Shown here in pieces: positions 29,247 through 55,466 of a DNA stretch of 64,000 nucleotides. The stretch is from Phycisphaerae bacterium RAS1. GTDB lineage: Bacteria; Planctomycetota; Phycisphaerae; UBA1845; Fen-1342. The notes beneath the pieces are model-generated. The model made no database searches and was not told the DNA's origin. It saw only the letters and a list, made by a program, of their open reading frames with translations. How positions within the stretch are numbered: the first letter of the stretch is position 1; each line of letters opens with the position of its first letter. The position numbers and the translations under genes are program-made. The stretch spans positions 736,942 through 800,941 of the forward strand of contig SMLU01000002.1 of NCBI GenBank assembly GCA_007859745.1, given 5' to 3'.

Positions 29247-29369
29247 CGCCAGGCTCCGGTTGTTCGCCCAGACCGCAATTCTAGGCGCTTTCGGCGTTTT
29301 GGGGCACCGCCGGCTCGTGATCCGGTAGTCGGCCGGCGCATCCACCGTTCTGCTACGGCGCACGTCTTT

Positions 29370-29596
29370 CCGAACCCGCCGCGCCAAGCGGCGGGACGAC
29401 GTTGCTTCCGTCCGAACCCGCCGCGCCAAGCGGCGGGACGACGTTGCTTCCGTCCGAACCCGCCGCGCCAAGCGGCGGGACGACGTTGCTTCCGTCCGAA
29501 CCCGCCGCGCCAAGCGGCGGGGTGAACTCCCACCGCGAGGAACGTAGATCGCCGCCGGACGTCAACCCGCCGCTTGGCGCGGCGGGTTCTGAAAGG
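29370..29596. repeat. Tandem array of family B repeat, four units, plus inverted partner
   Basis: A 42-base unit, CCGAACCCGCCGCGCCAAGC followed by GGCGGGACGACGTTGCTTCC and GT, begins at 29370, 29412 and 29454; a fourth, partial unit begins at 29496. An inverted partner (AACCCGCCGCTTGGCGCGGC) ends at 29590. Because 42 is a multiple of three, reading frames pass through the array. It fills much of the 473-base spacer between the RND gene and mgtE, which otherwise holds only the mgtE promoter region. Confidence 0.9.
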
Positions 29597-36797: not shown

Positions 36798-38351
36798 ATG
36801 AAAACCGCACGCACCATCGCACTGAGCCTGGCGCTCGTGGCATTCGTCGCGGCCGCCGCAGCCGAGGATGCCGCGATTCGCGCCGGCCGCGTCTGGACCG
36901 GCAAGGGTCCGGCTCTTGAGAACGCGCTGATCGTGATTCGCGACGGCAAGGTCGTGTCCGTTGCCGCCGGCGCGAACGCGCCCGACGGGGTCAAGACGCT
37001 GAAATACGAGGAGATGGTCGTGACGCCCGGCCTCGTGGACGCGGCCTGCGTCATCGATCCGGAAATCCCGCAGGTCGCATCGCTGCGCGACTTCGGCATG
37101 TGCCTGCGTTGCGCCGCCGCGCACCGTCTGCACCTCACGGCCGATCCGGCCCTGGGCGCGTCGGTCGACGGCTGCCCGCGCTGCGCCGCGGCGCATGCCG
37201 GCCATGCCGCCAGGAAGTCAATGCAGCCGACCTCGGCGCAGTTCTGGGCAAAGCTCGCCGCGGCCTCGGAGGCGACGGAGCATGACCATGCGGCCGGCGA
37301 CGCTTGCGGTCCGGGCTGCTCGGGTCCGCGTACGCTGGAGGACTTCGCCGAACTCGTCTCCTCCGGGCCATCCGCCAACCTGACCTGGGCCGAGCAATCA
37401 TCCGAAGTGACGCCGCATTGCAGCGTGCTCGACGCGGTCAATTTCTCGTCGCGTGATTTTCGCGTGCTGCTGAGCAGCGGCGTGACCACCATCTACGTCA
37501 GCCCGGACACGGCCGCCGTCATCGGGGCGCGCGGGGCCGTGGTGAAGACGGGTGGGCCCCTCGCCGGGCGTGTTGTCCGCAAACAGGACAGCGTCCTGGC
37601 GGCGATGGGCGCCGATCCGGTCCGCCGCGGCCGCTTCAACAATCTTCCGCCGGGCCGTGGCGGCGACGTCTCGTTCATGACGCGGCGGCCGACGACGCGC
37701 ATGGGCGTGGACTTCGTGTTCCGCAAGGCGTTTTACGACGCAATGCGCGTCGCGGAGGGAATGGAGCTGCACGGCGCGGACGCGCCCCCGGCGCCCGCGG
37801 TCCCGGTGTTGCAGGAGATTCTCGCCGGCAAGACGCCCCTGCGCGTGCAGGCGCGCCTGCAACACGACATTCTCAACGCGCTGCGGCTGGCGCGCGAGTT
37901 CAAGCTGAGCATGACGCTTCAGGAAGCGGTCGAGGCCTACAAATGCCTCGACCAGATCAAGGCCGCCGGATTTCCGCTGATCTACGGCCCGATCTTCGAT
38001 CGGCCCAGCGGCTGGCGGGCGTTCACGGGCGAGGCGACCGAGCCGCGGCTGACGACGCCCGCGGCCCTGCGCGACGCTGGCATCCGCTTCTGCCTGACGG
38101 CGAGCGAAGGCCGCGACGAGTCCGGATTGGTCCGGCAGGCGATGGTTGCGGCGCGCTACGGCCTGTCGGAAGACGACGCGCTGGCCGCGGTGACGCGCGT
38201 CCCGGCTGAGCTGATGGGACTTGCCGAGCGCGTCGGCACGCTCGCGGCCGGCGCCGATGCGGACCTCGTGGTCTGGACCGGCGATCCGCTCGACGCGACC
38301 AGCCGCGTGAAGATGGTGATGATCGAGGGCAAGGTGGTGTATGAAGAGTAG
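36798..38351 (+). CDS. Amidohydrolase-superfamily pseudoenzyme, cluster member 3, with Cys/His-rich insertion
   Basis: The 517-residue product has a signal peptide (TIALSLALVAFVAAAAAE). Where the family has PGLIDxHxH it reads PGLVDAACVID (A83, V85). Directly after this comes a Cys/His-rich stretch: C102-x2-C105-x3-H109, C126-x2-C129-x3-H133, H162, H164, C170 and C174 (text MCLRCAAAH, GCPRCAAAH, EHDHAAGDACGPGC). It could bind one or two metals. The beta-5 text is LRVQARLQHDILNA, beta-6 is LQEAVEAY and beta-8 is LTASEGRDES, so the normal site is absent. AGGAG precedes the start; the end overlaps member 4. Confidence 0.8.
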   Translation: MKTARTIALSLALVAFVAAAAAEDAAIRAGRVWTGKGPALENALIVIRDGKVVSVAAGANAPDGVKTLKYEEMVVTPGLVDAACVIDPEIPQVASLRDFGMCLRCAAAHRLHLTADPALGASVDGCPRCAAAHAGHAARKSMQPTSAQFWAKLAAASEATEHDHAAGDACGPGCSGPRTLEDFAELVSSGPSANLTWAEQSSEVTPHCSVLDAVNFSSRDFRVLLSSGVTTIYVSPDTAAVIGARGAVVKTGGPLAGRVVRKQDSVLAAMGADPVRRGRFNNLPPGRGGDVSFMTRRPTTRMGVDFVFRKAFYDAMRVAEGMELHGADAPPAPAVPVLQEILAGKTPLRVQARLQHDILNALRLAREFKLSMTLQEAVEAYKCLDQIKAAGFPLIYGPIFDRPSGWRAFTGEATEPRLTTPAALRDAGIRFCLTASEGRDESGLVRQAMVAARYGLSEDDALAAVTRVPAELMGLAERVGTLAAGADADLVVWTGDPLDATSRVKMVMIEGKVVYEE

Positions 38352-39828
38352 CGAGTGGCGAGTAGCGAGTAGCGAGTTGAATGCGGAACGGCGAATGACA
38401 AATCGCGAAGGTCGAATGCCGAATGTTGAATGTCGAATGCCAAACGGGGCGCGCTTGCGCTGTGCACGCCGATCGCTTCTGGCCGCCCTTTCGATATTCG
38501 CCATTCGACATTCGACATTCGCGCTTGCCGCTCCCCCGCCGGACAAGATCGCTCTCACCAACGTCCGCATCATCCCGGTTGTCGGCGCGCCGATCGGCAA
38601 GGGCACGCTGCTGATCGAAAACGGCAAGATCGCCGCGGTCGGTGAGAAGGTGGAAACGCCCTTCGACGCGCGCGTCTTCGACCTGGCCGGCAAAGTGCTG
38701 TTTCCCGGCTCTTTCATCGCCGACACGTGGCGCGGACTGGACGGCGCCAACGAGTCGCGTCCCGTGACGCCGCAGCTCGATGCGTATGACGCCATCGACC
38801 CGTCGCAGCTTTTCTTCGAGGACTGTCTGCGGCTGGGAACGACCGCGGTGCACGTCATGCCGGGCAACAACACGGTCATCGGCGGGCTGGGGCGCGTTGT
38901 GCGGCCGATCGGACTCGTGCCCGACGAGATGATGCTGGCCGACGCGGCCTTCGCGAAGATCGCGGTTACGCCGAAGTTCGGCCATGACCGCATGCTCCAG
39001 CTCTCGATGCTCCGCGAGGCCTTCGCCGAGCTGGACGACTTCCTCAACAAGCTGGCCGAGCGCAAGTACGAGGAGAAGCTGGCCGAGGAAGAGAAAAAGA
39101 TCGACGTGCTGCCGGCCGAGGCGCGCAAACGCGGCAAGGACCTGATCACGCCCGGGGACATCGACGACCAGCATCGCAACCTCTTGCGGCTGCGCGGCGG
39201 GCAGGTGCGGGTGGACGGCGCCGATGGACCCACGCTCTTCAAGCCGCTGGGCGCGGTGATGTACTGCGGTGCGGCGATGGACGTGGCCCCGGCGCTGCAG
39301 CTCGCGAAGGACAACGGATTCCTCGAGCGCACGGTGCTTTCGCTGGGGGCCGAGTGTTTCAAGGCGGTCAAGGAGTTGAAGAAGGCGGCCCGGCCAGTGG
39401 TGCTGCCGGCGGAACTGATCTATCGCGAGGTCGATCCATTTACGGGCGAAATCCGCGAGACCTTCATGGCGCGAAAGCTGTTTGACGCCGGGCTGCTGAT
39501 CGCCCTGGCGCCGGGGCCGGAAGACTCGCTTTCCGAGCGCGTGCTGACCTACCAGGCGGCCCGCTGCGTGCGTTTCGGCGTGCCGCGAGACGAGGCGCTG
39601 AAGGCGATTACGCTGAATCCGGCGAAGATGCTGGGGCTGGGCGACCGGCTCGGCTCGCTGGAAGCGGGAAAAGACGCCACGCTGGTGGTTTACAGCGGCG
39701 ACCCTCTCGATTTCAACAGCGTGGTCGAGAAAGTGTTTATTGACGGCATTCTCGCCTATCAACGTGAGAAGGACGTGCGCCTGCAGCGGCTGCTCTCCAC
39801 GGGTCAGGATGCGAAAGATGATCGATAG
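38341..39828 (+). CDS. Amidohydrolase-superfamily pseudoenzyme, cluster member 4, repeat-derived N-terminus
   Basis: The 495-residue product begins inside a family F repeat, overlapping the previous stop by 11 bases. Residues 1-62 are repeat-encoded and include the only signal-peptide-like segment (RRSLLAALSIFAIRHSTFA). Alternative ATGs at codons 19, 26 and 33 also lie in the repeat. At the HxH position it reads LFPGSFIADTWRG (D128, W130). Beta-5 is GAVMYCGAAMDVAP, beta-6 VLSLGAECF and beta-8 LIALAPGPEDS, so no standard metal site remains. A charged helical stretch (about residues 225-260) and LGSLEAGKDATLVVYSGDPL are family-like. Confidence 0.75.
   Translation: MKSSEWRVASSELNAERRMTNREGRMPNVECRMPNGARLRCARRSLLAALSIFAIRHSTFALAAPPPDKIALTNVRIIPVVGAPIGKGTLLIENGKIAAVGEKVETPFDARVFDLAGKVLFPGSFIADTWRGLDGANESRPVTPQLDAYDAIDPSQLFFEDCLRLGTTAVHVMPGNNTVIGGLGRVVRPIGLVPDEMMLADAAFAKIAVTPKFGHDRMLQLSMLREAFAELDDFLNKLAERKYEEKLAEEEKKIDVLPAEARKRGKDLITPGDIDDQHRNLLRLRGGQVRVDGADGPTLFKPLGAVMYCGAAMDVAPALQLAKDNGFLERTVLSLGAECFKAVKELKKAARPVVLPAELIYREVDPFTGEIRETFMARKLFDAGLLIALAPGPEDSLSERVLTYQAARCVRFGVPRDEALKAITLNPAKMLGLGDRLGSLEAGKDATLVVYSGDPLDFNSVVEKVFIDGILAYQREKDVRLQRLLSTGQDAKDDR
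38345..38525. repeat. Family F element (AGCGAGT / AATGTCGAATG type)
   Basis: GAGTAGCGAGTGGCGAGTAG (38346 on) is followed by AATGTTGAATGTCGAATG near 38,420 and, inverted, CATTCGACATTCGACATTCG (38504-38523). Copies lie at 42,736-42,890, 44,105-44,142 and 48,318-48,362. This copy encodes the N-terminus of cluster member 4. Confidence 0.85.
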
Positions 39829-42739
39829 AACTAGCGCCTCAGCCGCGCGGGACTGTAGCGTCGGACCTCCGCGTCCGACGGCGCGTTTCGTCGCCCGTTT
39901 CGCCGCCGGGCGCGGAGGTCCGACGCTACGGCTCCGGGCGTGCGCGCTTCTGATCGCCTTCAGCGCGTCGTCGCTGGCCGACGCACCGGCGTCCTTCGCG
40001 CTCAAGGCCCGCGCGATCTACCCCGCGACGGCGGATGGGGCCGCACCGTTCATGCCCGGCGTCGTCATTGTCCGCGATGGCAAGATCGTTGCCGTCGGCG
40101 CCAAAAACGCGATCGAAATTCCGCCCGACCTGCCGGTCGTAAATTTACGCGACGCGAGCATCTGCCCCGGCTTCGTCTCGGCGGGCAGTTCCATCGCCGG
40201 CCGGCATCAGGGGGACTACGCGGTGGGCGGCGACTACCGCGCCATCGACGCCTACGACTCATACGCCCGCTACCAGCGCACGCTGGCGCGCGGCACGACG
40301 ACGGCTCATCTTGACCCCGGCGGCCACATGCTCGTGTCCGGACGCGGCGCGATCGTCAAGCTCGCCGGCGACGCGGCGCTGCGCGTCCTTTCGTCCGAGG
40401 CGGACCTCGCGATCAACCTGGGCGTCTTCGACCCGCCCGCGGTCCAGGAGCCGCCGTTCTACGCCTCGTCCGACGTGGCGATCCAGCCGGCAAAGCCGCA
40501 GCGGCCCGACTCGCGCCTGGGCCAGTTCCTGGAGCTCGACGAGCGCATCGCCGCGATCGGCAAGCCGCGACCGGCCGTCAAGCCGCGGCGCGTGGAGGAC
40601 CGGCCGGCGTGCGACGTGCACGGCCTAGGCTTCGAAGAGGCCTGGCAGGCGAAATTGCCGCTGCGCGTGCAGGTGCGGCTGGCCGCGGACATCGACGGCG
40701 CGATCCAGTTCGTCGCCAGACACAAACGGTCGGCCTACCTCGTCGGCGTCGCCGACGGCGGAAAACTCACCGACGACCTGCTTCGATCCGGCTTGCCGGT
40801 GGTCCTGCGCCTGGAAAGCGAATTTCGCCAGCCGGAGGCCAACCTTGGCGGCGATCCGGAGGCGTTCGAGCCGTCGCTGCGCGTCGCCGGCCAGCTCGCG
40901 CGGGCCCAGGGAAAGAGCGGCGCGGCTCTGAAAGTGGCTCTCTCTGGCCGCGAAGGCGACCTGGCGGAAGACCTGCGGATGGCAGCCGCCCTCGCGCGCC
41001 GCGGCGGCATGCCTGCGGACCAGGCGCTGGCGGCGATCACGCGCGTTCCGGCTGAGATCCTGGGCATCGACGGCCGCGTCGGCAGCCTGGCGCCGGGCAA
41101 GGACGCCGATCTGGTCGTTCTCAGCGATGACCCGACGCAACTGGCGGCGAGCGTCCTGCGCGTCTACGTGGACGGCGTGGCGGCGTTTTCCGCGCCGGAG
41201 ACCAAAGCGGTCGTGATCCGCGCCGGGCGCATCTGGGTGGGCGACGGCTCGGTGGTGCGCGACGGATCGATCCTCGTCGAAGACGGCAAGATCAAGGCCG
41301 TCGGGCAGCGCGTCGCCCAGCCTCCTTTCTCACAGGTTATCGACGCCGGCGCCGACGCGTTCGTCACGCCCGGCTTCATCGACGCCCACGGCCATCTCGG
41401 TCTGGAGGGCGACAAGTCGGCCGCGTCGGCCGATCTACCCATTCACCTGGCGATCGGCGTCGCGGGGCTGGACTTTCTGCGCGTGGCGCGCACCGGCGTG
41501 ACGACCGTGATGCTGGCGGCCTACAAGGTCGCGGCGGACGGCGGACGCATCGCCGCGATCAAGACCTTCGGCGCCAACCGCGACGACATGGTGACCCGCG
41601 ACGTCGCCGGTCTGAAGCTCTCCATCAAGGGCAAAGATCCGCTGACCGCGATCAAGCCGCTCCGCGACACGCTCGAAGCCGCCAAAAAATACGACGAACA
41701 ATGGAAAAAGTACTACGCCGATCTCGACAAGTGGGAGAAGGACAGAGCCGCCGGCGTGAAGCGCGCCGACAGCGTCAAGACCGAGGATCAGATCGAGACG
41801 GGCAAGGTCGATCCGATCACCGGCGTATGGGATTTCAAGCTCAGCGGCGGCCCGCTGCCCGAGGAAGTCACCGGCAGCATGACGCTGCGCCTGACGGGCA
41901 ATCAGATCGAAGGCCGCATGACCGCACCGGGCGCCGATGAGGAGGCCGTGCTCAGAGGCACGCTCGAGGGCGACGCGGTGCGGCTCGAAATCGAAGTGCC
42001 CGAGGAGTTTCCGTTCGGCAATCCGACCATCGAAGCAAAGCTCGACCGTGCCGATCACATGGCGGGCAAGGTCAACATCGGCAACCAGTTCTCGCTCGAC
42101 TTCGACGCGACGCGCACCAGCAAGGAGGCGGTCGAGTTCAAGGTGACGCGTAAGAAAAAGAAGACCAAGGACGGCCGCCCCGAGCCGCCGAAAATCAACG
42201 ACTCGCTGGAGCCCTGGCGCTCGCTGCTGGCGGGCAAGATCCCCGCCGTAATTGAGGCCGAGACGGCGGCCCAGATTGAAGCGGCGCTCAAGCTGTTCGT
42301 GGATGAGTACAAGACGAATGTGGTGCTGCTCGGAGCCGAGGACGCCGCGGACATCATCGACCAGGTCAAGGCCCGCAAGGATGCGGTCTCGATCATCGTT
42401 CCGCCGCAGATCGCCCGGCTTCGCGACCGCGTGCCCTACAGCCCGGCGGCGGACCTGGCCGGGCGCGGTGTTCGCGTGGGGCTGCAGAGCGACGCGGAGG
42501 ATGGCGCCCGCAACCTGCCGCTGATGGGGCTTTTCGCCGCTCAGGACGGCCTGGGCGGCGACGGGGCGCTGCGCGCCCTGACGATCGACGCGGCCAGGAT
42601 GTACCGCATCGACGATCGGCTGGGCTCGATCGAGGCCGGCAAAGACGCCGACCTGCTGATCTTCTCGGGACACCCGTTTGACGCCGGCAGCCGGCTGGAG
42701 CGCGTGATCGTCGCGGGGCGCGAGGTGAGAGATGAGTAG
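39818..42739 (+). CDS. Double amidohydrolase-superfamily protein, cluster member 5
   Basis: This 973-residue protein carries two tandem amidohydrolase modules. Residues about 14-54 come from a family D repeat, and the signal-like LRACALLIAFSASSLADA follows its right arm. Module 1 reads PGFVSAGSSIAG at the HxH position (G123, S125) and lacks the other ligands. Module 2 reads PGFIDAHGHLG (H524, H526) and has a beta-8 Asp-like LQSDAED, but the beta-5 and beta-6 histidines are missing (PAVIEAETAAQIE, VLLGAEDAA). A beta-rich insert (TGVWDFKLSG, GSMTLRLTGNQIEGRM) interrupts module 2. Its start overlaps the stop of member 4 by 11 bases; upstream ATGs at 39740 and 39809 are less likely. Confidence 0.78.
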   Translation: MIDRTSASAARDCSVGPPRPTARFVARFAAGRGGPTLRLRACALLIAFSASSLADAPASFALKARAIYPATADGAAPFMPGVVIVRDGKIVAVGAKNAIEIPPDLPVVNLRDASICPGFVSAGSSIAGRHQGDYAVGGDYRAIDAYDSYARYQRTLARGTTTAHLDPGGHMLVSGRGAIVKLAGDAALRVLSSEADLAINLGVFDPPAVQEPPFYASSDVAIQPAKPQRPDSRLGQFLELDERIAAIGKPRPAVKPRRVEDRPACDVHGLGFEEAWQAKLPLRVQVRLAADIDGAIQFVARHKRSAYLVGVADGGKLTDDLLRSGLPVVLRLESEFRQPEANLGGDPEAFEPSLRVAGQLARAQGKSGAALKVALSGREGDLAEDLRMAAALARRGGMPADQALAAITRVPAEILGIDGRVGSLAPGKDADLVVLSDDPTQLAASVLRVYVDGVAAFSAPETKAVVIRAGRIWVGDGSVVRDGSILVEDGKIKAVGQRVAQPPFSQVIDAGADAFVTPGFIDAHGHLGLEGDKSAASADLPIHLAIGVAGLDFLRVARTGVTTVMLAAYKVAADGGRIAAIKTFGANRDDMVTRDVAGLKLSIKGKDPLTAIKPLRDTLEAAKKYDEQWKKYYADLDKWEKDRAAGVKRADSVKTEDQIETGKVDPITGVWDFKLSGGPLPEEVTGSMTLRLTGNQIEGRMTAPGADEEAVLRGTLEGDAVRLEIEVPEEFPFGNPTIEAKLDRADHMAGKVNIGNQFSLDFDATRTSKEAVEFKVTRKKKKTKDGRPEPPKINDSLEPWRSLLAGKIPAVIEAETAAQIEAALKLFVDEYKTNVVLLGAEDAADIIDQVKARKDAVSIIVPPQIARLRDRVPYSPAADLAGRGVRVGLQSDAEDGARNLPLMGLFAAQDGLGGDGALRALTIDAARMYRIDDRLGSIEAGKDADLLIFSGHPFDAGSRLERVIVAGREVRDE
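39853..39932. repeat. Family D inverted repeat inside a coding region
   Basis: GTAGCGTCGGACCTCCGCGT (39857 on) pairs with GCGGAGGTCCGACGCTACGG (39911-39930). It lies within the N-terminal codons of cluster member 5 and encodes SVGPPRPTARF and RGGPTLRL. Confidence 0.85.
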
Positions 42740-44105
42740 CGAGTGTCGAGTGGCGAATAGCGAGTTGAAGGCCGAGGACCGAATGTCGAATGTCGAATAT
42801 CGAATGTCAAATGGGGCGTGCTCGCGCCACCGGCGGCGATTGCTTGCGGCGGTCCTTTCGATATTCGCCATTCGCCATTCGACATTCGCCGCGCTGGCGG
42901 ACGACACGCCGGCCGCCGCCGGCGCCGCCGCCGCGCCCAAGCTTGCGTTCCGCGTGGCGAAAGTGCTGAGCCTGAATGACCAGGATGACGTCATCAACGA
43001 CGCCGTCGTGCTGGTTTCCGGCGGCAAGATCGAAGCGGTCGGGCCGGCGTCGCAGGTGAAGATCCCGGACGGCTACACCGTTCGCGCGTTCTCCGAAAAC
43101 TGGATCGTGCCGGGGCTGGTCGATTGTCACGACCACATCGCCGGCAGCCTGAGCGACCTGAACGACATGGTCTACCAGACCAACCCGGGCTTGAACACGC
43201 GCGCCACGGTCGAGCCGAACAACGAACTCATCAAGCAGGCCCGCACCGGCGGCGTCACGACCGTGCTGCTCATCCCCGGCTCAGGCACGAACATGAGCGG
43301 CTTCGGCACCATCTGCAAGACCGCCGGCGACACGCCGGACGACGTGGTGGTTCGCTCTCCCGGTTCACTGAAGATCGCGCAGGCCGGCAACCCGGAGTGG
43401 TACTTCGGCGGAAACAACCGCAGCTTCATGAACTGGAACACGCGCCAGACGCTGCTCAAGGCGCTCGACTATCACCGCGCCTGGGAGGCGTTCGAGAAGG
43501 GCCAGACGAAGAAAAAACCCGCCTACGACCCCGTCTGGGATGACTTCCGCGGGCTGTTCCGACGCGATTTCCCGGTGTCGGTCCACACGCAGATTTACCA
43601 GGTCGTGATGACGACCGTCACCATGCTCTCGATGAAGCTCAAGCTCTGGACCGTGATGGACCATAGCGAGTTCGACGGCTGGAAAACGGCCCCCCTGGTG
43701 CTCGCCAGCGACGCCTGGACCATACAGGGGCCGCGCGCGTTCCACTTCGACACAGCCGCCCGCCGCATGTGCGGCAACGCCAATGGCTGGTGGAAGAACG
43801 GCGTGACCAAGCTCGGCCTGAATACCGACGCCCCGGTCATTCCGCAGCAGGAGTTGTCCTACCAGGCGACGATGGGTTGCTGGTACGGCTGGACCACCTA
43901 TCCCGCGATCAAGAGCGTGACCAAGGTGCCGTCCCAGGCGTTGGGATTGTCCGACCGCGTCGGCAGCATCGAGGCCGGAAAGGACGCCGACTTCGGCGTC
44001 TGGACCGGAGATCCGCTCGACCCGCGATCGGCCTGCCTGTTGCTGATCGTCAACGGCAAAGTGGCGTATGACGGGACGAAGGGCGAGCGGCCGAGACCGT
44101 TTTGA
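42732..44105 (+). CDS. Amidohydrolase-superfamily enzyme with full metal-ligand set, cluster member 6
   Basis: This 457-residue exported protein is the only member with a complete-looking site: PGLVDCHDHIAG (H133, H135), FPVSVHTQIYQ (H285), VMDHSEFDGW (H311) and LGLNTDAPVIP (D366). K196 in TICKTAGD could bridge the metals. The fold belongs with imidazolonepropionase/dipeptidase-like hydrolases of cyclic or peptide amide bonds; the substrate cannot be inferred. Residues 1-54 are encoded by a family F repeat and include the signal-like RRLLAAVLSIFAIRHSTFAA. The ATG overlaps the stop of member 5 (ATGAGTAG). Confidence 0.85.
   Translation: MSSECRVANSELKAEDRMSNVEYRMSNGACSRHRRRLLAAVLSIFAIRHSTFAALADDTPAAAGAAAAPKLAFRVAKVLSLNDQDDVINDAVVLVSGGKIEAVGPASQVKIPDGYTVRAFSENWIVPGLVDCHDHIAGSLSDLNDMVYQTNPGLNTRATVEPNNELIKQARTGGVTTVLLIPGSGTNMSGFGTICKTAGDTPDDVVVRSPGSLKIAQAGNPEWYFGGNNRSFMNWNTRQTLLKALDYHRAWEAFEKGQTKKKPAYDPVWDDFRGLFRRDFPVSVHTQIYQVVMTTVTMLSMKLKLWTVMDHSEFDGWKTAPLVLASDAWTIQGPRAFHFDTAARRMCGNANGWWKNGVTKLGLNTDAPVIPQQELSYQATMGCWYGWTTYPAIKSVTKVPSQALGLSDRVGSIEAGKDADFGVWTGDPLDPRSACLLLIVNGKVAYDGTKGERPRPF
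42736..42890. repeat. Family F element
   Basis: GAGTAGCGAGTGTCGAGTGG (42735 on), then AATGTCGAATGTCGAATATC (42783 on) and the inverted ATATTCGCCATTCGCCATTC. It supplies the TAG stop of member 5 and the N-terminal codons of member 6. Confidence 0.85.
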
Positions 44106-44142
44106 ATAGCGAGTAGAGAGTAGCGAGTAACGAGTAGCGAGT
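44105..44142. repeat. Family F fragment
   Basis: GAATAGCGAGTAGAGAGTAG and CGAGTAACGAGTAGCGAGTG follow the TGA stop of cluster member 6. No inverted partner is seen here. Confidence 0.7.
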
Positions 44143-44250: not shown

Positions 44251-44281
44251 CGTCGTCGGACGCGGAGGTCCGACGCTACGG
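44251..44281. repeat. Family D half element
   Basis: CGTCGTCGGACGCGGAGGTC followed by CGACGCTACG lies in the 204-base spacer before cluster member 7. Sequence around 44,170-44,220 (TGCCGACGGCCTTTGCGTCGGCA) forms a separate hairpin. Confidence 0.65.
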
Positions 44282-48317: not shown

Positions 48318-48362
48318 GGGAGTGCAGAATAGCGAATAGCGAGTAGCGAATAGCGAGTTGAA
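48318..48362. repeat. Family F fragment after the MoxR gene
   Basis: GAGTGCAGAATAGCGAATAG and CGAGTAGCGAATAGCGAGTT follow the TAG stop of the MoxR gene almost directly. Confidence 0.7.
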
Positions 48363-48373
48363 TCGGCACACCT

Positions 48374-48610
48374 CCGAGCCGCGACCGTCTGTATTTCCGA
48401 GCCGCGACCGTCTGTATTTCCGAGCCGCGACCGTCTGTATTTCCGAGCCGCGACCGTGAGGGAGCGGTTCCTCATCCGCCGCACCCATTCGGAACGCACC
48501 CGTTCGGGAGCAACCAGGAACCAACCGCTCTCTCGCCGTCGCGGCCACACTAACCGCTCCCTCACGGTCGCGGCTCGGAAAGCCGACCAGTCGCGGCTCG
48601 GAAATACAGA
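48374..48610. repeat. Family A cluster with a 23-base tandem repeat
   Basis: The 23-base unit CCGAGCCGCGACCGTCTGTA-TTT starts at 48374, 48397 and 48420, and a fourth copy of its first 15 bases at 48443 continues into GAGGGAGCGG. The inverted arm CCGCTCCCTCACGGTCGCGG with CTCGG ends at about 48,579, and further partial copies follow to about 48,610. Apart from this the 399-base spacer (48,316-48,714) holds nothing recognisable. Confidence 0.85.
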
Positions 48611-49806: not shown

Positions 49807-49901
49807 GTAGGGTGGGTTGAGCGCAGCGAAACCCACCGGCACCTTTGGAAACCGCTCGAACCGCCGACGTGGTGGGTTTCGCTGCGCTCAACCCACCCTA
49901 C
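49807..49901. repeat. REPIN: inverted pair of REP sequences (family G)
   Basis: GTAGGGTGGGTTGAGCGCAG-CGAAACCCACC (49807-49837) and its reverse complement (49871-49901) flank a 33-base spacer. Each REP is itself a hairpin. The second REP supplies the stop codon of the adjacent transposase gene. A single REP lies on the other side of that gene. Confidence 0.9.
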
Positions 49902-50473
49902 TCTCCTGCCTGGACATCCGCGACGCGAAACGGCGGGCGCGGCGCGCCGTTCCGTGGGCACGCGCATGCCCAATCCTCGTCATACAAACGCGCGGCGACC
50001 CAGTGCGAGAAGCTCGACCAGCGCCAGGCGTGCGGACAGAGCGCGAGTCCGTGTTTGACCGGGTTGAAGTGGATGTATTCCACGTGGCGCTGATAGTCCG
50101 CGTCGTCGCGGATGCGGTGCTCCCAGTAACGCCGTTGCCAGACGCCGCGCTCGCCATTCCGAAGGCGCGAATCGCTACGGAGCGCTTCAGCGCCGCCGGC
50201 GCGGAGGAACCGTCGAGTAAACTCGGACTTGATCAGGCGCCAACGATCAGAAAAGTCGCCGTCTTCCGGCGGGAGCGTCCAGATCATATGAAGGTGATCC
50301 GGCAGCATCACAGCGGCGATGATCTCGAACGGATGCGCGGCGCGGACACGCGCCATCGACGCACGAAGCAGGTCGACCGTGGCGTCCGTGTTGAGGATGG
50401 GCCGACGATCGGCCGTGACGAGCGTGAAGAAATAGGTTGCGCCGACTTCGCGCCAACGGCGATAGTCCGGCAT
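49898..50473 (-). CDS. REP-associated tyrosine transposase (RAYT)
   Basis: RAYTs are single-copy, IS200/IS605-like Y1 nucleases that act on REP hairpins. The 191-residue protein from the ATG at 50473 has the HUH motif H60-L-H62 (AVMLPDHLHMIWTLP) and the tyrosine region HVEYIHFNPVKHGL (Y133 the likely nucleophile). REP palindromes flank it on both sides, and its stop TAG lies inside the left REP. The frame is open 13 codons upstream, but those codons fall in the right REP, so the later ATG is preferred. Confidence 0.9.
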   Translation of the reverse strand: MPDYRRWREVGATYFFTLVTADRRPILNTDATVDLLRASMARVRAAHPFEIIAAVMLPDHLHMIWTLPPEDGDFSDRWRLIKSEFTRRFLRAGGAEALRSDSRLRNGERGVWQRRYWEHRIRDDADYQRHVEYIHFNPVKHGLALCPHAWRWSSFSHWVAARLYDEDWACACPRNGAPRPPFRVADVQAGE

Positions 50474-50491
50474 GATGCGCCTCGCTCGGGC

Positions 50492-50522
50492 GGTGGGTTT
50501 CGCTGCGCTCAACCCACCCTAC
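50492..50522. repeat. Single REP sequence (family G)
   Basis: GGTGGGTTTCGCTGCGCTCA-ACCCACCCTAC (50492-50522) is the same sequence as the right arm of the REPIN at 49,871-49,901. It overlaps the TAG stop of the GspE-like gene and precedes the RAYT gene. Confidence 0.9.
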
Positions 50523-52639: not shown

Positions 52640-55357
52640 ATGTCATTCAGGAATCCTGCCGGCCTCGCGGCGGCGGCCGTGCTGTCGGCGGCGTGTTTTG
52701 CCATCCCCGCGGCTGCCGACGTGCTCGTCCTGCAGCCGGTGAAAGACAACACGATGCTCGACTCCGCGCCGGATTGGAGCAACGGCGCCGGGATCCACAC
52801 ATTCGCCGGCCGCACCAACATCGGCGGCGTGCACCGCGGATTGACGCAGTTTGACATTTCCGGAATCAGACCCGGTTCGACCATCACCGCCGTCTCGCTC
52901 CAGCTTTACATGTCCAAAACCCGCGCCGGCGGGGCGAACGTCACGCTGCACCGCCTCACGGCTTCGTGGGGCGAGGCGACGTCCAACGCCGAGGGCGAAG
53001 AAGGCGCGCTGGCGCCCGCCGCGACGAACGACGCCACGTGGAATCACCGCTTCTATCCCGCCACCGCCTGGACAAGCCCCGGCGGCGATTTTATTGCGAC
53101 CGCCAGCGCCACCACGAATGTCGGGGGCACGAACGGCTACTACACGTGGTCTTCCGCCGGCCTCGTGGCGGATGTCCAGGGCTGGTTGAACAACCCGGGC
53201 ACGAATTTCGGTTGGATCATCCGCGGAAACGAAGGGTCGAACGGCTCGTCCAAACGGTTTGACACGCGCGAGGCCGGCGCCGGCTTTCGCCCCATCCTGA
53301 CCGTGACCTTCACCCCCCCGCCCGGAGCGTGCTGCATCGCGGGAAACACGTGCGTCTCGGTGAGCGAGGCGAATTGTGCCACGCAGGGCGGCACCTACCA
53401 GGGCGACGGATCGCTTTGCACGCCCAACCCGTGCGTGCAGCCCATGGGCGCCTGCTGCTTCCCCAACGGCTCGTGCAGCATTCGCACCAGCGGCAACTGC
53501 GCGCCCTTCGGCGGCACGTACCAGGGCGACGGAGCGAGCTGCACGCCCAACCCCTGCCCGCCGCCCACCGGCGCGTGTTGCTTCCCCAATAGCAGTTGCA
53601 GCGTGCTGACGCAGCCGGGCTGCACCACGCAGGGCGGGACCTATCGCGGCAATTTCGTGGCGTGCACGGTCGGGCTATGCCCCATGCTGCTTGAGCCGTT
53701 CGTCGATCCGCTGCCGCTGCCGGCCGTGGCACAGCCCGCCAGCGGGCAGGCGGGCGGCGCCGCCCACTACAACATCGCCATCACCGAGTTTTCGCAGCAA
53801 TTGCACCGCGATCTTCCGGCGACGCGCCTGTGGGGTTACGGCGGCACGTATCCGGGGCCGACCATCGAGGCGCGGCGCGATCTGCCGGTGACGGTGACGT
53901 GGGTCAATGATCTGCGTGACGCCCAGGGCAATCTGCGCACCACGCACTATCTGCCGGTCGATCCGTGCATGCACGGACCGGACATGACCGGTTCTATGCC
54001 GATGACGGTCACGCACCTGCACGGGGCGCGGGTTCGCCCGGACAGCGACGGGTATCCGGAGGCCAGCTTCGCGCCCGGCGAATCGTCGACGCTCTACACC
54101 TATCCCAACATCCAGCAGGCGGCGACGCTCTGGTATCACGATCATGCCCTGGGGCTTACGCGGCTGAACGTCTTCATGGGACTGGCCGGGTTCTACCTGC
54201 TGCGCGACGCGGAAGAAGACGCGCTGAATATCCCCCGCGGCGAATATGAAATCCCGCTGGCGATCCAGGACCGCACCTTCAACACCGACGGCTCGCTGCG
54301 CTACCTGGCGCAGTGGAACGACCATTTCTTCGGCGAGCTGATGCTGGTGAACGGAAAGGTCTGGCCCTACCTGAATGTGAAGCGCGGCAAGTACCGCTTC
54401 CGCCTGCTGGACGGCTCCAACTCGCGCGTCCTGACCCTCTCGCTCTCGAACGGAGCGACGTTCTGGCAGATCGGGACGGACAACGGTCTGGTGGCCGCTC
54501 CGCTGGCCCTGACCAGCATCACCCTGGCGCCCGGCGAACGGGCCGACATCGTCATCGACTTCGCCCCGCTCGCGCCGGGGACGCAGGTTATCCTGCAGAA
54601 CTCGGCCCCGGCCCCCTACCCGGGCACGCCCGGCGTGGGCGTCATTCCAAACGTGATGAAATTCATCGTCGGCGCGCAGGCCGGCGACACCGATCCGCTG
54701 CCCGCCTCGCTCGTGCCGTTCTCGCCGATCTCGGACGTGGCGGCTTCGAAGCGGCGAACGCTGAACCTGCGAAGTGGATTTGACCCCAATTGCGGCCACG
54801 ACATGTGGACCATCAACGACCTGCTCTGGGACGACATCACCGAGTATCCGCGGCACGGCACCACGGAAGTATGGTCCTGGGTCAACCGCTCCGGTGTGGT
54901 CCACCCGATGCACATGCATCTGGAGCCGCAGCAGCTTCTGGATCGGCAGGATTTCGTGATCGTGGACGGCCAGGTCGTGCCCTCCGGGCCGCGCGTGCCG
55001 CCGGCGCCCTACGAAGTGGGCTGGAAGGACACGTTCCAGGCCCTGCCCAACCAGATCACGCGCGTGATCATGTACTTCAACACGTACACCGGGAAATACC
55101 CCTATCACTGCCACGTGCTCGAGCACGAGGACCACGAGATGATGCGGCAGTTCGTCGTGGTTCTGGAGGGCGATCTGGACTGCGACGAAGCAGTCACGGT
55201 TCTCGATATCAACCCGTTCATTCTGGCGCTGAGCAATCCGGCTCAGTACGTGATCCAGTACCCGGACTGCGAGATCAACGCGGCGGACGCGAACCGGGAC
55301 GGGCAGATCAACGTGCTGGACATCAACCGGTTCGTGCAGATTCTCTCGGAGCAGTAG
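52640..55357 (+). CDS. Secreted multicopper oxidase with DNRLRE-like, GACC-repeat and dockerin modules
   Basis: The 905-residue protein begins with a signal peptide (LAAAAVLSAACFAIPAAA). Residues about 27-226 form a DNRLRE-type beta-sandwich (DNTMLDSAPDWSNGAG). Residues 228-348 are three Cys-rich repeats of about 40 residues (each starting GACC and containing GGTYxG and CTPNPC). Residues about 350-850 are a CotA-like multicopper oxidase with all copper motifs: THLHGAR (459-461), WYHDHALG (500-502), HPMHMHLEPQ and YHCHVLEHEDHEMMRQF. The C-terminus has two dockerin loops (LDCDEAVTVLDINPFILA, DANRDGQINVLDINRFVQ). TAGGAG precedes the ATG. The substrate could be phenolics or metal ions. Confidence 0.9.
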   Translation: MSFRNPAGLAAAAVLSAACFAIPAAADVLVLQPVKDNTMLDSAPDWSNGAGIHTFAGRTNIGGVHRGLTQFDISGIRPGSTITAVSLQLYMSKTRAGGANVTLHRLTASWGEATSNAEGEEGALAPAATNDATWNHRFYPATAWTSPGGDFIATASATTNVGGTNGYYTWSSAGLVADVQGWLNNPGTNFGWIIRGNEGSNGSSKRFDTREAGAGFRPILTVTFTPPPGACCIAGNTCVSVSEANCATQGGTYQGDGSLCTPNPCVQPMGACCFPNGSCSIRTSGNCAPFGGTYQGDGASCTPNPCPPPTGACCFPNSSCSVLTQPGCTTQGGTYRGNFVACTVGLCPMLLEPFVDPLPLPAVAQPASGQAGGAAHYNIAITEFSQQLHRDLPATRLWGYGGTYPGPTIEARRDLPVTVTWVNDLRDAQGNLRTTHYLPVDPCMHGPDMTGSMPMTVTHLHGARVRPDSDGYPEASFAPGESSTLYTYPNIQQAATLWYHDHALGLTRLNVFMGLAGFYLLRDAEEDALNIPRGEYEIPLAIQDRTFNTDGSLRYLAQWNDHFFGELMLVNGKVWPYLNVKRGKYRFRLLDGSNSRVLTLSLSNGATFWQIGTDNGLVAAPLALTSITLAPGERADIVIDFAPLAPGTQVILQNSAPAPYPGTPGVGVIPNVMKFIVGAQAGDTDPLPASLVPFSPISDVAASKRRTLNLRSGFDPNCGHDMWTINDLLWDDITEYPRHGTTEVWSWVNRSGVVHPMHMHLEPQQLLDRQDFVIVDGQVVPSGPRVPPAPYEVGWKDTFQALPNQITRVIMYFNTYTGKYPYHCHVLEHEDHEMMRQFVVVLEGDLDCDEAVTVLDINPFILALSNPAQYVIQYPDCEINAADANRDGQINVLDINRFVQILSEQ

Positions 55358-55466
55358 CGTCGGACCTCCGCGTCCGACGGCGCGCGGCGCGGCGGGAAAC
55401 TCGGTCGGACAGGGAGGTCCAACGACCGCGGGAAACGCCGTCGGACGCGGAGGTCCGACGCTACGG
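55354..55466. repeat. Family D inverted repeat at a convergent junction
   Basis: GTAGCGTCGGACCTCCGCGT (55354 on) includes the TAG stop of the oxidase gene; the inverted arm GTCGGACGCGGAGGTCCGAC with GCTAC ends at 55465. It lies between two convergent genes. Confidence 0.85.

Follow-up and report, generated by a model that had tools for sequence, protein, structure and literature searches.

The two amidohydrolase-family genes termed gene 1 and gene 2 in Table 1 most likely carry, at the 5′ ends of their coding sequences, in-frame insertions of a palindromic repeat built from heptad units, and both encode enzymes that are presumably secreted. They are located in a 64,000-nucleotide stretch of the genome of Phycisphaerae bacterium RAS1 (the window), within a run of amidohydrolase-family genes (PF01979/PF07969), several of which are joined by stop/start overlap, and both ORFs are present and encode intact amidohydrolase-family proteins. 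In each gene a cassette of ~155-176 bp, composed of an array of GAGTAGC units (type b) followed by a hairpin of the form (CGAATGT)n-loop-(CGACATT)n (type a), is read in frame through the N-terminus, with hairpin folds of z -4.2 in the gene 1 cassette and -3.8 in the gene 2 cassette. The original prediction was upheld in that part of the coding sequence of two presumed export signals comes from a dispersed repeat family, while several of the details attached to it were not upheld.

Table 1. Features of the two amidohydrolase genes and related repeats (window coordinates)
Feature	Coordinates	Strand	Description
Gene 1	38341..39828	+	Amidohydrolase-family, 495 aa, heptad cassette at N-terminus
Gene 1 start	38341..38351	+	ATG 38341 overlapping TAG 38349-38351 of upstream gene 36798-38351
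Gene 1 type-b array	38346..38379	+	(GAGTAGC)4 GAGTTGA, codes SSEWRVASSEL
Gene 1 type-a left arm	38423..38441	+	Hairpin arm, CGAATGT heptads and variants; heptad-like from 38392
Gene 1 loop	38442..38489	+	Basic stretch and first half of hydrophobic core, NGARLRCARRSLLAAL
Gene 1 type-a right arm	38490..38521	+	Codes SIFAIRHSTF (second half of core and c-region)
Gene 2	42732..44105	+	Amidohydrolase-family, 457 aa, second cassette copy at N-terminus
Gene 2 start	42732..42739	+	ATG 42732 overlapping TAG 42737-42739 of upstream gene 39818-42739
Gene 2 type-b array	42734..42771	+	Heptad array of second cassette
Gene 2 type-a left arm	42780..42813	+	Hairpin arm
Gene 2 loop	42814..42859	+	Codes GACSRHRRRLLAAVL
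Gene 2 type-a right arm	42860..42890	+	Codes SIFAIRHSTF
Type-b array alone	44104..44142	+	GAGTAGC units past gene 2 stop, non-coding, without GACATTC arm
Type-b array alone	48327..48356	+	GAATAGC units past stop of MoxR-type ATPase gene, non-coding
Other dispersed palindrome	39844..39940	+	GCGGAGGTCCGACGCTACGG, 40-nt arms, in frame between start 39818 and hydrophobic stretch ACALLIAFSASSLA of the cluster's third gene

The repeat motif GATATTCGCCATTCG, which has seven matches at two or fewer mismatches in the 64-kb window against 0.24 expected, occurs exactly at 38493 and 42860 and, as had been noted from the letters, is read in frame as SIFAIRHSTF in both ORFs. It could be argued that the repeat is extragenic, that translation begins downstream and that the ORF extension is spurious, since many other elements in this genome directly precede a start codon and downstream starts have been suggested for many N-terminal REPs (PMC3733652). 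This is highly improbable, because the stretch from the right arm to the conserved domain contains no ATG, GTG or TTG, in agreement with the earlier observation that no later start precedes the domain, and because a later start would cost conserved residues as well as the signal peptide present in orthologues. Past the right arm, the next ATG, GTG or TTG is found at codon 104 in gene 1 and at codon 75 in gene 2, in both cases within the domain. Thus, SIFAIRHSTFA must be translated if the conserved N-terminal residues of the domain are made.

Export of both enzymes by a Sec-type route is presumed from the protein sequences. The predicted n-region ends in RLRCARRS in gene 1 and SRHRRR in gene 2, and is followed by the predicted cores LLAALSIFAI and LLAAVLSIFAI and the predicted c-regions RHSTFALA and RHSTFAALA, respectively. 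As judged by hydropathy and charge alone, a basic n-region, a hydrophobic core and small residues at positions -3 and -1 are in place, and ALA precedes the presumed mature part in both proteins. The mean hydropathy of the core over ten residues (2.78 and 2.82, with positive charge upstream) lies inside the 1.9-3.0 spanned by the orthologues, whereas the uninterrupted core spans 11 residues compared with mostly 14-19 in the orthologues. The Arg-His pair between the core and the presumed cleavage site is unusual for a signal peptide, and so is the length of the n-region, about 35-45 residues if the ancestral ATG is used. That ATG retains a Shine-Dalgarno-like sequence. As the element contains additional ATGs, of which two (codon 26 of gene 1 and codon 18 of gene 2) are accompanied by a Shine-Dalgarno-like sequence, it may or may not provide the start used today. 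The hydrophobic cores had been described as translations of the repeat, which is correct for SIFAI, contributed by the repeat arm, but not for LLAAL/LLAAVL, which belong to the hairpin loop (coding RRSLLAAL in gene 1 and RRRLLAAVL in gene 2).

Orthologues that are 51-70% identical over the enzyme part were identified in 13 related genomes, and these related proteins have ordinary signal peptides without the element. The overlap of ATG and stop codon is also found without it, for gene 1 in G003 (TATGAAGAATAG), G004 (ATGAGGGTTGA) and G017 (ATGAACGATAG), the junction in G003 holding a different heptad array, and for gene 2 in G019 (GATGAATAG), G010 (GATGAGGAATAG), G013 (GATGAACCGTAA) and G012 (ATGAACGCTAG). 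Within the window, genes overlap in a similar manner at a third junction (39818), where there is no heptad array. Because the overlap exists in repeat-free relatives and at the 39818 junction, stop and start predate the repeat; in both genes the cassette follows immediately on the overlap. The comparison with orthologues lacking the repeat, which the original prediction had itself proposed as a check, thus speaks against an origin of the start codon, and of the stop codon of the preceding gene, from the element. As to the export signal, the element does form a coding part of the presumed signals, but the repeat-free orthologues have signal peptides of their own. It is therefore highly improbable that the element created an export signal in an enzyme previously without one, supplying start, stop and signal together. 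Half of the core is indeed formed by the repeat arm, and start codons with a Shine-Dalgarno-like sequence lie inside the element; however, repeat-free orthologues possess both the start/stop overlap and a signal peptide, and the c-region of gene 2 is orthologue-like (ALADDTP, compared with ALADQAP in G017).

Aligned with each other, the two cassettes agree at 81% over a 98-bp stretch that includes the loop (E 8.9e-20), so that the earlier statement that both genes contain the same repeat holds but understates the likeness. No match to the cassettes spanning the loop was found elsewhere in the 5.5 Mb genome. Given a match that includes the loop and is found nowhere else, one cassette was probably copied to the other gene. 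The enzyme parts flanking the cassettes are far less similar to each other than the cassettes are, and copying between the two junctions by local recombination would be the simplest reading. One could envisage that the cassette first landed or expanded within the signal-peptide region of one gene, and that it was tolerated there, as the n-regions and cores of signal peptides take nearly any basic-then-hydrophobic sequence. Local recombination involving the similar start/stop sequences and the heptads may then have placed a copy of it at the paralogous junction, 4.4 kb away. The insertion was probably neutral or slightly useful and not an adaptation. Because a unit length of 7 shares no factor with 3, all frames of such an array encode one and the same cyclic seven-residue peptide, and since the type-a unit contains no stop in any of its six frames (HSTFDIR/RMSNVEC), the sole requirement is a total length divisible by three; the type-b right arms, reading LLATRYS, are likewise open. 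Going by the units themselves, the open reading of the heptads is a consequence of their sequence, for which no selection for coding would be needed.

Across the 5.5 Mb genome, 137 matches to a type-a 19-mer and 208 to a type-b 18-mer were counted, overlapping ones included. A total of 100 elements were delimited in 567 kb of sequence, which was chosen around repeat matches and does not represent a genome-wide census. All complete pairs have one polarity, with GAATG or GAGTAG on the left and CATTC or CTACTC on the right; the loops measure 15-91 nt and differ between copies, and single-strand folds give strong hairpins (z -3.8 to -11). Elements outside genes commonly lie a few bases past a stop codon, mostly between genes on the same strand. 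Non-coding copies of the cassette repeat had also been reported at 44105 and 48318, but these lack the GACATTC arm and carry the sister heptad GAGTAGC/GAATAGC alone. Nor does the description of the element as mobile find support, as the loops vary, a target duplication is not recognised and arrays are not found near Y1_Tnp genes: inspection of 42 hairpins by eye for the features of a MITE revealed inverted arms but neither constant ends nor target duplications, and no heptad array lies within 1.5 kb of any of the 20 Y1_Tnp transposase genes in the genome. A scan of public genomes for type-b hairpins, in a collection that near relatives may lie outside, returned a single short stretch of REP-like sequence, in Kocuria coralli (L246:3570-3672), an intergenic palindrome resembling the type-b arm (CCGAGTAGCGAGTTGAGCC) that is probably an unrelated REP.

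Of the approximately 100 sampled elements, 13 lie within conserved enzymes whose reading frame they preserve, flanked on either side by good coding signal. Nine enzymes are concerned (identified by NCBIfam), namely UvrA (four inserts), CarB (two), MetH, HutU, MqnE, PutA, a selenium-dependent-type xanthine dehydrogenase, a fused 2-oxoacid:ferredoxin oxidoreductase (OFOR) and a HemN-like radical SAM protein; one further case (L132:1538) was discarded as chance. The inserts of MetH, UvrA and HutU appear as an extra loop or linker in alignments with PDB structures, that of the HemN-like protein lies directly ahead of the radical SAM domain, and those of CarB are absent in the closest relatives. 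Since the CarB proteins of relatives have other inserts at these spots, they look like permissive sites. The same CarB (L103:1401-5204, minus strand) contains, in addition to its two heptad hairpins, a third insert made of another dispersed repeat (SRDREG type). In the UvrA-like protein with four heptad inserts (L101:12-4721), a second UvrA C-terminal part is fused in front, and one of the inserts is situated within the fusion linker. The urocanase (L137:7242-9176) has, besides its heptad insert, extra stretches at about residues 161-191 and 309-343 that are absent in solved urocanases. The repeat may also be part of the N-terminal export signal of three other proteins, a NosL-like lipoprotein (L136:2535-3095, family assigned by eye), a PQQ-propeller-like protein (L121) and a phosphodiesterase/sulfatase-like protein (L115).

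The distribution of the family bears on two other explanations. Instead of having been inserted, the arrays could have originated on site, with slippage extending a GARTAGC seed at a stop codon, as the first bases of the array in G000 (both genes) and in G003, GAGTAG/GAATAG, are precisely the Glu-stop of the gene before. We consider this unlikely, because slippage does not produce inverted arms and would leave the same heptads within unrelated genes unexplained. It could also be that the hairpin matters chiefly for the structure it gives to RNA or DNA, for instance in translation coupling, in transcript stability or as a recombination site, and that coding is a by-product, which would be compatible with insertion. 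The strength of the hairpins, the location of the extragenic elements mostly directly past stop codons and known proposals of this kind for REPs would fit such a role, but the copies inside core genes, with their varied positions and loops, argue against a single regulatory function, which makes it rather unlikely that structure is the main role.

In-frame repeats are an already known phenomenon, and what is new here is heptad-built palindromes as coding insertions. Intragenic GTAG/CGTC REPs occur in frame in conserved genes, including the doubly hit uvrA of Opitutus terrae, can provide flanking genes with a TAG stop, and are of doubtful coding status when N-terminal (Di Nocera et al. 2013, PMC3733652). 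The elements described here resemble these REPs, which are known in the PVC group, in forming in-frame palindromes (in uvrA as well), in their position near gene ends and at N-termini and in the TAG stops, but their arms consist of tandem 7-bp units and their loops vary, whereas REPs are 20-40 bp long with an unpaired tag. GTAG is found here only inside the paired type-b unit, and the heptad elements do not adjoin a RAYT gene. A RU-2 repeat is part of the signal peptide of Yersinia YPO1552, the signal peptides of the orthologues being unrelated (Delihas 2007, PMC2759123); however, RU-2 is an enterobacterial element of 168 bp, whereas the present case concerns two paralogues with a copied heptad cassette. 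Rickettsia palindromic elements are likewise coding palindromes located in frame, some of them N-terminally, in many unrelated proteins, as are the 13 inserts in nine enzymes found here, but they are longer, have no described heptad structure and belong to a different phylum. Tandem 7-bp units dispersed in the genome, as observed in this study, are also characteristic of the STRRs of cyanobacteria, which occur in hairpins of RNA genes too. In Beggiatoaceae, TAACTGA heptanucleotide repeats are found near start codons (PMC4679880). Both kinds share with our family dispersed 7-bp units that adjoin start codons, but they are mostly direct and outside genes, in contrast to the inverted pairs and in-frame coding copies seen here.

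Repeats of other kinds are also found at orthologous starts in relatives. When these were scanned for arrays of period 5-10, with 200 shuffles each, 5 of the 19 starts exceeded all 200 shuffles (both genes of G003, G011, G018 and gene 1 of G010), the arrays being heptads of other sequence in G003 and octads in G011, G018 and G010. In about 165 kb of the relatives' clusters there are eight strong period-7/8 arrays, five of which are at these starts. The octad of G010 belongs to a dispersed family with 55 matches and, in the gene-1 orthologue, encodes the core AWLRGFVVTWLCGFV; among its other copies, none was convincing as a signal peptide. It is possible, and is proposed here tentatively, that unrelated short tandem-repeat families have repeatedly and independently supplied parts of signal peptides in this bacterial family, at junctions where genes overlap, examples being the heptad hairpins described above, the octad core of G010 and the heptad or octad n-regions of G003, G011 and G018.

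Further repeats are present in the window. The GCGGAGGTCCGACGCTACGG palindrome family is also found near 44262, 55352-55466, 3195 and 36748. Exact tandem arrays are located at 48373-48457 (23-bp unit, 3.7 copies) and 29369-29521 (42-bp unit, 3.6 copies), and a REP-associated tyrosine transposase (49898-50512, minus strand; NF047646, E 5.5e-57) is flanked by a different repeat, of GAGCGCAGCGAAACC type.

The evolution of signal peptides is fast, and it is seldom possible to trace where one came from. In the present case a repeat is recognisable as the source of part of a presumed signal peptide, and this apparently holds twice among the orthologues, with different repeats. If short tandem repeats are indeed recruited repeatedly, they would constitute a regular raw material for the replacement of signal peptides. 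The two genes offer a testable example of repeats turned into working protein sequence, in which the ancestral start and stop are separable from the inserted part, repeat-free orthologues exist and at least nine core enzymes of the same genome contain the same family in frame. The case illustrates how junk-like repeats may become part of working proteins.
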